In this document: piece by piece, positions 3,512-39,480 of the stretch
How the letters are laid out: each line of letters starts with the position of its first letter
Position numbering within the stretch: position 1 is the first letter of the stretch
Source: an uncultured Clostridia bacterium
GTDB lineage: Bacteria > Bacillota > Clostridia > Oscillospirales > Acutalibacteraceae
Length of the DNA: 39,480 bases
Direction: 5' to 3'
NCBI GenBank assembly: GCA_947589415.1
Contig: CANQBP010000019.1
Location: 1-39,480 of the forward strand
Translations under genes and position numbers: made by a program
The notes under the pieces: model-generated
Told to the model about the DNA's origin: nothing
Seen by the model: the letters and a program-made list of their open reading frames with translations, nothing else
Database searches by the model: none

Positions 3512-3645
3512 ATTGCAGGCGTGAATATACTTTCGATACCCGCCCAAAACCGAAAAATAAATCAAAGTGATAATCGTCAAAAATATTATTAGAACAGGTC
3601 AGTAATACGGTAAAAATAAGTTGCTAAAATTCACTAAATTTTCTA

Positions 3646-3677
3646 TTGACATTTATATGCAAATATGATATTATAAT
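3646..3677 (+). promoter_or_regulatory. SigA promoter of the tRNA-Ser pair
   Basis: A consensus TTGACA at 3646-3651 is followed after 17 nt by TATTAT (3669-3674), overlapping a second possible -10, TATAAT (3672-3677). It lies 24 nt before the first tRNA. Confidence 0.75.
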
Positions 3678-3700
3678 AAAGTCGCAGATGACAGACAAGT

Positions 3701-3789
3701 GGAGAGGTATCGAAGCGGTCATAACGAGGCGGTCTTGAAAACCGTTTGTCCGAAAGGACACATGGGTTCGAATCCCATCCTCTCCGCCA
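3701..3789 (+). tRNA. tRNA-Ser(UGA)
   Basis: The gene folds as a class II tRNA. The 7-bp acceptor GGAGAGG pairs with CCTCTCC, the anticodon loop CTTGAAA places TGA at 3736-3738, a long variable arm forms around TGTCC-GAAA-GGACA, and the T loop is GTTCGAATC. The 3' CCA is encoded in the DNA (3787-3789). Confidence 0.95.
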
Positions 3790-3837
3790 CATATTTGTCC
3801 CGGTATCTTCGGGTATCGGGACGGAATATTCACCTTT

Positions 3838-3924
3838 GGAGGATTACCCAAGTGGTGAAGGGGATCCCCTGCTAAGGGATTAGGTCGGGAAACCGGCGCG
3901 AGGGTTCGAATCCCTTGTCCTCCG
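3838..3924 (+). tRNA. tRNA-Ser(GCU)
   Basis: A class II tRNA with acceptor GGAGGAT/GTCCTCC (last pair T-G), anticodon loop CTGCTAA with GCT at 3871-3873, a variable arm around GTCGG-GAAA-CCGGC, and T loop GTTCGAATC. Unlike its neighbour it has no encoded CCA (TAG follows the discriminator G), so it depends on the CCA-adding enzyme encoded at 19772-21133. Confidence 0.95.
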
Positions 3925-3928
3925 TAGA

Positions 3929-3974
3929 AACCGCATGATTGCCGAGGTTCGGTGTTCATGCGGTTCTTTCGTTT
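3929..3974 (+). terminator. Rho-independent terminator of the tRNA operon
   Basis: A perfect 10-bp stem (3929-3938 with 3956-3965) has an inner CCGA/TCGG pairing in its loop and is followed by CTTTCGTTT. It starts five bases after the second tRNA. Confidence 0.75.
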
Positions 3975-37707: not shown

Positions 37708-38850
37708 TTACTTTATCAATCTTTTAAATATCAAATCAAATATTTTTGAAAAACTTATTTTTTCCACCTGTTCCGCTGAATTTATGGGGTATTCCGCTAT
37801 ACTTTTTCCGTTTCTTTTGTATGTTATTTTACCTATTTTATCCCCCTTATTTACAGGTGCTTCTATGCTTTCGGGGAGTGTTATATCGTATGTGATATCC
37901 TTATCCCCTCCTTTTTTTATTAAAAATTTTCCGTTGATTTCGGTTTCTGTTTTTACTTTGTCATTCATACCGTTGGTTACGGTAATATCGGTAAATGCCT
38001 CATCGGGTGATTTTGGTGTATAGACGGTATAGTTTGCAAAACCGTAATCGAGAAGTACAGCCGCATCGCTAAATCTGTCTTTACCCGTTTTACTTCCGAG
38101 TACGACTGCTATAAGGCTAAGTCCGTCCCTTTCGGCTGTTGCCGATATACAACTTCCCGCTTGAGATGTTGTTCCCGTTTTTAGACCCGTTATTCCGTTA
38201 TATGATTTAAGGAGCTTGTTTGTATTGACAAGTTGTGTTTTGCCGTTACGGAGTGTATCCATCCATATTTGGCTGTATTTAAAGATAGATTTATGTCTTA
38301 TAAGATCTCTTGACATAAGTGCAACATCGTATGCGCTTGTTATATGACCCTCTTCGTCAAGACCGTTGCAATTTTTAAATACGGTATCTTTCATTCCCAG
38401 TTTTTTAGCTTTTTCGTTCATCATTACTACAAATTCGTCTTCAGAACCGCATATATGTTCGGCGAGTGCAACAGCGGCATCGTTTGCGCTTGCGACTATT
38501 GTGGCCTTAACCATTTCATCTACTGTCATAGTTTCTCCCGGTTCGAGCCATATATCCGAACCGCCCATTGATGAAGCGTGTTCGGAAGCTGTAACTGTAT
38601 CAGTCCATTTTATTCTGCCGTTATCGAGTGCCTCCATAACGAGGTCAAGTGTCATTACCTTTGTTATTGATGCACAAGCACGTTTTTCGTGCGGATTTTT
38701 CTGATACAGCACCTCACCCGTTTCCGAATCCATTAGTACTGCTGCCGGTGCGGTTATATCCTTGTCTGAAATTGCGAATGCTTTTACTTGGGTAAAAAAC
38801 ATCAGAGATACAGCAGCCATAAATAGTGTGAATATCTTATAAATTTTCAT
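37708..38850 (-). CDS. Secreted D-alanyl-D-alanine carboxypeptidase (DacF/PBP5 type)
   Basis: The 380-residue protein has an N-terminal signal peptide (hydrophobic about 5-20, likely cut after AFA), then the D,D-peptidase motifs in order: ACASITKVMT (SxxK), VASANDAAVAL (SxN) and GLKTGTTSQAGSC (KTG). A PBP5-type beta domain follows, and the C-terminus SFSKIFDLIFKRLIK is an amphipathic membrane anchor. It removes terminal D-Ala from cell-wall peptides. The start is ATG 38850 because GGAGG lies 6 nt before it and inside the codons of a longer frame from 38862. It is convergent with the related plus-strand gene. Upstream lies the hairpin block; I cannot see a clear promoter there. Confidence 0.92.
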   Translation of the reverse strand: MKIYKIFTLFMAAVSLMFFTQVKAFAISDKDITAPAAVLMDSETGEVLYQKNPHEKRACASITKVMTLDLVMEALDNGRIKWTDTVTASEHASSMGGSDIWLEPGETMTVDEMVKATIVASANDAAVALAEHICGSEDEFVVMMNEKAKKLGMKDTVFKNCNGLDEEGHITSAYDVALMSRDLIRHKSIFKYSQIWMDTLRNGKTQLVNTNKLLKSYNGITGLKTGTTSQAGSCISATAERDGLSLIAVVLGSKTGKDRFSDAAVLLDYGFANYTVYTPKSPDEAFTDITVTNGMNDKVKTETEINGKFLIKKGGDKDITYDITLPESIEAPVNKGDKIGKITYKRNGKSIAEYPINSAEQVEKISFSKIFDLIFKRLIK

Positions 38851-38930
38851 AGACGCCTCCATTTAATTATTCTGTTAATACTTATTCACCTCCCAAAAAA
38901 AATATGCAGCACGCCGCCGGGGGCACTCTG

Positions 38931-38948
38931 CCGGCGAAGTGTCGCCGG
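38931..38948. repeat. Hairpin 1 of the right-edge array
   Basis: CCGGCGA (38931-38937), loop AGTG, TCGCCGG (38942-38948), perfect 7 bp. Confidence 0.7.
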
Positions 38949-38973
38949 GATTAGTTTGCGAAGGCATTGACAA

Positions 38974-39005
38974 GGGGACGCCCTCTCGCAGGGCGTCCCC
39001 TCTTT
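38974..39005 (+). terminator. Hairpin 2 of the array, terminator-like on the plus strand
   Basis: GGGGACGCCCT (38974-38984) pairs perfectly with AGGGCGTCCCC (38990-39000) around CTCGC; TCTTT follows on the plus strand. No plus-strand gene ends here, so termination is only one possible role. Confidence 0.6.
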
Positions 39006-39033
39006 AAAAACAGTCCACCGGATTGTTTTTAAA
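39003..39033. repeat. Hairpin 3 of the array
   Basis: TTTAAAAACAGTC (39003-39015) pairs with GATTGTTTTTAAA (39021-39033) around CACCG; 13 pairs with one G-T. It overlaps the T-rich tail of hairpin 2. Confidence 0.7.
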
Positions 39034-39068
39034 TTCACCCCTCGCCCAGGCGTGAAGGATAAGAGATT

Positions 39069-39107
39069 TCGCCGTCTGCGGACGGCGACCAAAGGCTCTG
39101 CCTTTGG
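39069..39107. repeat. Hairpins 4 and 5 of the array, back to back
   Basis: TCGCCGTC/GACGGCGA (39069-39076 and 39081-39088, loop TGCG) is followed without a gap by CCAAAGGC/GCCTTTGG (39089-39096 and 39100-39107, loop TCT). Both stems are perfect 8 bp. Confidence 0.72.
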
Positions 39108-39110
39108 AAA

Positions 39111-39274
39111 CCGCAAGCCTTTGAAAAGGCTTGACCTAAACTTGCATTTTCGATACTGTAACTTTTTTATTGCGGAGTGGCTCGTTAGAGCCACTCTCGA
39201 TATAAACCTACCCATACCGATAGGTAAGTTTATTATCGCGGAAACAGACTACCCCACTCAAAAGTCAAAGCGAA
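39111..39274. repeat. Tandem repeat, copy A
   Basis: About 164 bp. It begins with a perfect 8-bp hairpin CAAGCCTT-TGAA-AAGGCTTG (39114-39133), holds the GTTA-capped stem (39175-39196) and the CCTA...TAGG element, and ends with a block (about 39228-39274) almost identical in copy B. The start-to-start distance to copy B is about 207 bp. No protein function is supported. Confidence 0.85.
39175..39196. other. GTTA-capped 9-bp stem, copy A
   Basis: GAGTGGCTC, loop GTTA, GAGCCACTC, perfect 9 bp. Its counterpart in copy B differs at three base pairs, each changed on both sides. Confidence 0.85.
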
Positions 39275-39302
39275 CGTAAGTGAGCGTAAGCGCGAATTGA
39301 CA

Positions 39303-39317
39303 GCGGAGGCACTCCGC
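39303..39317. repeat. Spacer hairpin between repeat copies
   Basis: GCGGAG, loop GCA, CTCCGC directly before copy B. The rest of the spacer (39275-39302) holds two CGTAAG direct repeats. Confidence 0.65.
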
Positions 39318-39480
39318 CCGCAAGCCTTTGAAAAGGCTTGACCTAAACTTGCATTTTGATGCCATAACTTTCTTACGGCGAAACGGCTCGTTAGGGCCGT
39401 TTTCGATATAGACCTACTCATTCCGATAGGCAAGTTTATTATCGCGGAAACAGACTACCCCACTCAAAAGTCAAAGCGAA
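39318..39480. repeat. Tandem repeat, copy B (continues past the window)
   Basis: It repeats the layout of copy A: the CAAGCCTT hairpin (39321-39340), the GTTA-capped stem, CCTA...TAGG (39413-39430) and the block ending at the window edge. The ends and the CAAGCCTT region are nearly identical to copy A, while the middle has diverged. Further copies may follow. Confidence 0.85.
39381..39402. other. GTTA-capped 9-bp stem, copy B
   Basis: AAACGGCTC, loop GTTA, GGGCCGTTT. Relative to copy A, stem pairs 1, 3 and 4 changed G-C to A-T, G-C to A-T and T-A to C-G; pair 8 changed T-A to T-G. The stem and loop are kept. Confidence 0.85.

Follow-up and report, generated by a model that had tools for sequence, protein, structure and literature searches.

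A dispersed, tandemly arrayed hairpin repeat resembling REP/BIME and BOX elements in an uncultured Clostridia bacterium

Introduction

Bacterial REP sequences are located near gene ends and between the genes of operons. REP and BIME sequences are described as extragenic palindromes that form composite clusters, with many per genome (PMC3733652, PMC2817692). The BOX elements of Streptococcus pneumoniae consist of composite boxA-boxB(n)-boxC modules, inside which lies a tandem array that varies in length, and are predicted to fold if transcribed (PMC3049150). According to PMC8794818, template switching during replication can produce matched double changes in one step, and its proposed footprints are multi-base compensatory changes and stem extension. 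A term search of the available text of PMC3733652 found neither the bacteria considered here nor compensatory change, and that of PMC12306157 gave a single table passage on Bacillota and nothing further. No description of the present repeat family was found in a search of the literature on such repeats, most subscription papers lying outside its scope.

The window analysed here (the whole stretch of DNA, 39,480 nt) is contig 19 of a 2.29 Mb genome of 95 contigs that is 95.99% complete. An initial annotation had pointed out a doubled sequence at its right end, which we consider probably to be part of a dispersed, tandemly arrayed, non-coding hairpin-mosaic repeat, similar to REP/BIME and BOX and growing at its 3′ hairpin. 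Like REP and BIME, it consists of palindromes outside genes, grouped in composite clusters and numerous in the genome, and palindromes in many extragenic copies are a mark of REP/RAYT systems. Unlike REP and BIME, its unit reaches about 400 bp and holds several hairpins, arranged head-to-tail rather than alternating. It shares composite modules and a variable-length tandem array with BOX (PMC3049150), the comparison being one of architecture, and it is not classed as BOX for that reason; unlike BOX, its blocks have a common 3′ hairpin but variable 5′ ends. By analogy, it would work like BIME and BOX repeats.

Anatomy of the Repeat Unit

Two head-to-tail copies of a 207 bp unit, starting at 39111 and 39318, were found by direct reading and by repeat search, in agreement with the initial annotation. 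The first 40 nt of each (39111-39150 and 39318-39357) are identical at a spacing of 207, and a stretch of 127 nt (39148-39274 and 39354-39480) show 86% identity at a spacing of 206. The first copy had been taken to end at 39274 but reaches 39317, and the second stops at 39480 because the contig ends there; the array therefore continues past the assembly, and the window shows its start. While the doubling itself stands, the full unit is larger than had been noticed, as it extends upstream to about 38915 with four further palindromes (H1-H4), so that it spans about 400 bp and contains at least seven hairpins. The features are as follows.

38915-39317, plus strand: repeat unit, consisting of a B module (38915-39110) and an A module (39111-39317); its 5′ border was chosen by us and is not sharp
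38973-39001, unstranded: H1, AGGGGACGCCCT-CTCGC-AGGGCGTCCCCT (inverted repeat; stems at this position differ in other genomes)
39003-39033, unstranded: H2, TTTAAAAACAGTCC-ACC-GGATTGTTTTTAAA (inverted repeat; other genomes compared)
39069-39088, unstranded: H3, TCGCCGTC-TGCG-GACGGCGA (changed on both sides in 5 of 8 pairs)
39089-39107, unstranded: H4, CCAAAGGC-TCT-GCCTTTGG (changed on both sides in 6 of 8 pairs)
39111-39317, plus strand: A module copy 1, 207 bp, completing the first copy of the initial annotation (direct reading, repeat search, genome matches)
39114-39133, unstranded: H5, CAAGCCTTTGAAAAGGCTTG (inverted repeat), within a 32-base motif common to other genera
39173-39317, plus strand: core segment H6-H7, 145 bp, whole in three sister species (distinct core hits)
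39175-39196, unstranded: H6 copy 1, GTTA-capped stem (changed on both sides in 7 of 9 pairs, 35 copies)
39303-39317, unstranded: H7, GCGGAG-GCA-CTCCGC, the 3′ terminus of most blocks and the point where the following block is attached (joints; four pair types at one pair)
39318-39480, plus strand: A module copy 2, truncated where the contig stops (89% identity over query positions 1-164)
39381-39402, unstranded: H6 copy 2 (direct reading)

The H6 stem reads GAGTGGCTC-GTTA-GAGCCACTC in copy 1 and AAACGGCTC-GTTA-GGGCCGTTT in copy 2. As initially reported, three of its nine pairs are altered on both sides, one changes from T-A to T-G, and the GTTA loop is the same; the TGAA hairpin (H5) and the sequence CCTAYYCATWCCGATAGG are also common to both copies. 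The GTTA loop is not conserved beyond the window, being present in 9 of 43 unique H6 hairpins (68 copies, four species), with GTAA, GCA, GCAA, GGA, ATCA and more in the others. By eye, the CCTA/TAGG pairing is lost in many other copies of the own genome. H7 has the general form GCGGnG-GCA-Cn′CCGC.

The sister species keep the 145 bp core, which in one of them (G024) is largely found with a different 5′ module. Among 118 distinct core hits in the loci examined, 88 begin at the first model position and 80 finish at the last. Thirty-two full-length B modules, 19 of which come from genomes beyond the four species or from named records, keep the order H1-H5 and parts of the linkers while their stems differ (grouped by eye); the alignment of B modules takes in 23 of these 32 eligible sequences. 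In two copies (L064:2230-2439 and L238:1364-1573) an H7-type head (GGCGGCACACCGCC) stands in place of the inner half of H6, as though heads were exchangeable between hairpins.

Copies in the Own Genome and in Relatives

The 207 bp unit gave 51 matches in its own genome, the best besides itself at E 5e-73. A number of these sit at contig ends, and arrays are found at many contig ends of the assembly. In a search of 60 genomes, with at most 13 candidates per genome scored where more existed, the unit was matched at E ≤ 0.001 in 29, i.e., its own, 28 of 36 of the same genus, and none of 23 from other families. Among the matches listed, those outside the own genome exceeded about 100 bp only in G001, G021 and G024, and the remaining genomes showed short fragments, mostly from one of the two ends. 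By eye, no array is present upstream of dacF in these three nearest relatives; none lies between the gltX- and glnS-type genes of G021, and the same interval of G024 holds just a different, partial remnant. When an own-genome locus comprising core and flanks was compared with the sister species G024 (loci L226-L236 and L265-L271), 93 matches were obtained; two are the flanking genes, and many carry a different 5′ module.

The exact 32-base motif occurs in at least 117 stretches of named genomes. Among the matches listed, its hosts include Ruminococcus sp., Oscillospiraceae, Candidatus Faecivivens, Clostridium sp. and Roseburia sp., along with uncultured Clostridiales MAGs, and several come from rumen or gut. 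A covariance model of three hairpins (H3-H5) matched 25 of 197 genomes of the order including the own genome (17 of 111 genera, 8 families); seven genomes had at least 24 candidates, at most 24 being scored per genome. Other copies do exist, and the stem pairing is mostly kept in them; neither of the two outcomes that the initial annotation named as refuting was seen.

Covariation of the Stems

An alignment of H6, a middle helix and H7 took in 35 of 57 distinct eligible copies from four species. Paired cells made up 97.1%, against 91.4% in shuffles, and sliding the partners by 1-3 columns reduced pairing to at most 54.1%. Both-sided change was seen in 8 of 20 pairs, and for all five measures none of 500 shuffles scored as high. 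In the H3-H5 set (the window plus 27 named-genome sites) 97.4% of cells were paired, 18 were unpaired, and one of the five measures, the number of further pair types, was reached by 89 of 500 shuffles; H5 is invariant in this set because it served as the search motif. Double-changed cells numbered 35 in the H6-H7 alignment (9.1 in shuffles) and 62 in the H3-H5 set (15.6 in shuffles, 0 of 500 as high), counts that are not independent events because the copies have common ancestors and one genome may contribute several sites. Together, H3 and H4 have 62 double-changed cells against 3 wobble cells. Covariation that keeps pairing, as in structured non-coding RNAs of the Rfam type, is thus present.

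The stem GAAAGCCTC/GAGGCTTTC was found in 6 of 68 H6 copies and departs from the usual GAGCGGCTC/GAGCCGCTC at three pairs, two of them by transversions. One H6 pair is a mismatch or wobble in 7 of 30 own copies, and these intermediates indicate that point mutation acts too. A candidate core helix, CGATA/TATCG, was rejected, as it showed no both-sided change and one of its pairs was broken in 12 of 35 copies.

Wobble Pairs

An RNA strand tolerates G-U but not A-C pairs, while a DNA palindrome has no such bias. Wobble pairs were scored in three of the seven hairpin classes (H3, H4 and H6) and were strand-symmetric, with a total of 22 G-T and 28 A-C. By class, there were 12 G-T and 11 A-C in H6 (43 unique hairpins, 68 copies), 9 and 17 in H4 (43 unique, 104 sites, a set that holds some badly defined hairpins), and 1 and 0 in H3 (13 unique, 27 sites). 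The G-U excess over A-C expected of a structured non-coding RNA was not found in these three classes. As a positive control, the acceptor and T stems of own-genome tRNAs (31 unique sequences, loci of 30 of 43 matches) gave 43 G-T and 5 A-C, with stem registers that are approximate because the control contains 20 other mismatches. A greedy hairpin search of the 32 B modules gave 985 Watson-Crick, 76 G-T, 87 A-C and 105 other pairs, also symmetric, although this search over-extends. A stricter count upstream of the 32-mer (38 unique hairpins; 289 Watson-Crick, 1 G-T, 3 A-C and 3 other pairs) was set aside because its scoring disfavours wobble, and a permissive pattern extraction of hairpins was discarded as mostly false matches.

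The wobble symmetry, being unlike that of tRNAs, favours template-switched DNA palindromes, or a DNA hairpin under selection, rather than an RNA under selection, and it also fits selection on an (extruded) DNA hairpin. The conclusion of the initial annotation that structure appears selected does not follow, since pairing is kept but wobble lacks strand bias, and the stretch between H6 and H7 shows no folding excess over dinucleotide shuffles on either strand (z -0.5 and -0.7).

Placement beside Genes

Neighbours were counted as open frames of at least 90 aa, taking the longest within 400 bp of the last core hit and skipping arrays that ended 60 bp or less from the end of a locus. Such a frame was present near the 3′ end of 41 of 53 arrays in the regions examined from four species. 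Thirty-four of the 41 face the array by their stop codon and 7 point away, where symmetry predicts half. In these 34 cases the stop codon lies a median of about 30 bp from the last core hit, and 18 are within 31 bp. Elsewhere, among the matches listed, 124 sites of the 32-base motif lie between frames that are codirectional (54), convergent (16) or divergent (4); the remaining 50 have one or no neighbour within 800 bp, or are inside a frame.

Ten flanking proteins that were scanned belong to ordinary chromosomal genes (D-Ala-D-Ala carboxypeptidase, PEPCK, two class I tRNA synthetases, histidinol dehydrogenase, an aminotransferase, an acetyltransferase, Cu/Zn superoxide dismutase, RF3 and a WG-repeat protein), and none of the ten is a transposase. 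One array (L066:2522-5658) lies between same-strand genes for histidinol dehydrogenase and an aminotransferase; these genes probably form a his operon, and the array may therefore be transcribed along with them. In the window, about 50 bp (38863-38915) separate the array from the start codon of a dacF-like gene (37708-38862, minus strand), a gap so short that the promoter or leader of this gene may lie in or beyond the repeats. Predicted frames of about 90-140 aa overlap the arrays, where copies differ by indels of 1-2 nt. Away from the array, a 111-aa frame (3624-3959, minus strand) is antisense to two tRNA genes (3701-3786 and 3838-3924) and is probably spurious.

Block Ends and Joints

The 403 bp unit was tiled across 20 own-genome regions, the window and L029. 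Of the 52 free 3′ ends of blocks, 40 fall at the last bases of the unit, i.e., H7 (39303-39317), and 12 elsewhere, two of these being a palindrome artefact; the 5′ starts are spread over 29 positions. At 28 of 31 joints the departure is within 6 bases of the end of H7. By eye, the segment that follows H7 often starts with CCGC, CGG or similar, which suggests microhomology at the joints. Units are more alike within an array (0.888, 17 pairs) than between arrays (0.821, 418 pairs), a difference reached by none of 2000 label shuffles. Slippage would account for tandem growth, not for spread.

Interpretation

The repeat consists of short palindromes and conserved linkers in intergenic DNA, with H7 usually a short distance past the stop codon of the neighbouring gene. 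Among the three options raised initially, an undescribed structured RNA, a REP-like mobile hairpin element and a protein-binding array, the REP-like element fits best, given the many dispersed copies and their patchy presence among relatives. For the arrays to grow, synthesis would stall at H7 and restart in a nearby unit. Template switching between the arms of a palindrome could keep them complementary and make the 'compensatory' changes together, and the matched stem changes look more like such upkeep of palindromes at the DNA level than like a new RNA gene. The template-switch hairpins of PMC8794818 are described for RNA genes, whereas the present repeat is interspersed and has no sign of RNA-strand bias. 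Candidate routes of spread to new genes are a transposase acting in trans, or recombination; no target-site duplication was made out, and at dacF and gltX-glnS no exact insertion border or empty site could be read. On mRNA, the arrays would be hairpins of 3′ UTRs or between cistrons, by analogy with REP/BIME, and the gene-facing placement could stem from selection on mRNA.

Such selection could also be primary, the repeat being a structured RNA or 3′ UTR element that, on the strand of the genes (minus here), forms a string of hairpins stabilising, terminating or modulating mRNA. We regard this as unlikely. It is consistent with the placement and orientation to stop codons (34 of 41), and the folds are very stable, though on both strands (z -8.2 minus, -9.1 plus). 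The genes' strand is the lower-folding one in 63 of 67 distinct cores and 54 of 58 middle regions in raw comparison, but with dinucleotide-preserving shuffles in only 12 of 30 sampled cores, and strand-specific folding of the middle region was rejected because it is gone with such shuffles. By eye, H2 is an A-tract/GC/T-tract palindrome; the scan lists minus-strand H3, not H2, as terminator-like. The H6 loops vary, and the wobble asymmetry that tRNAs have is absent. Searched against Rfam, the window has no match at the gathering score except two tRNAs, and three further matches by E-value were rejected as far below the cut-offs.

Another reading, also improbable in our estimate, is a REP or MITE proper, in which non-autonomous units are moved in trans by a transposase that recognises terminal hairpins. 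The units are dispersed, presence is species-specific, and a hairpin lies at each end of the 145 bp core. The transposase search covered the Y1 class. Matches to the Y1 (RAYT) family PF01797 occur in 11 of 37 genomes of the genus, including core-carrying G021 with 7, but there are none in the own genome, in copy-rich G024, or in G001 (62% complete). A Y1 transposase was thus rejected as the mover, and the repeat is not classed as REP because none was found in the own genome. Of the two tags that REP/RAYT palindromes have at one end, GTAG was not seen before H6 in own copies and stands within a few bases ahead of H6 in many copies of G024, and CGTC lies within the H3 stem (all by eye). Neither terminal inverted repeats nor a target-site duplication, as expected of a MITE, were seen by eye in the flanks, and variable 5′ ends fit poorly with a two-ended transposon.

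A more specific form of the hairpin-mosaic reading is offered tentatively, and we think it rather unlikely to be right in full. In these Clostridia, amplification may be one-ended and anchored at a hairpin, with units copied from a fixed 3′ hairpin to variable 5′ stops behind stop codons, while the same template switching rewrites the arms in concert. If so, stems would be entirely different from one genus to the next, with loops, linkers and order mostly retained. Covariation is usually strong evidence for a selected RNA; here it is strong without the strand-biased wobble of tRNAs, and the repeat family is therefore a caution for RNA discovery. It is also a natural data set for measuring the evolution of palindromes by template switching, and, lying behind stop codons, it lends itself to direct tests of effects on mRNA decay, termination and translation.

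A related element in a Ruminococcus sp. MAG (L084:5740-6050) is seemingly bordered by inverted GATTTCGTACCAAGAT-like ends, and is perhaps a MITE form of the repeat family.
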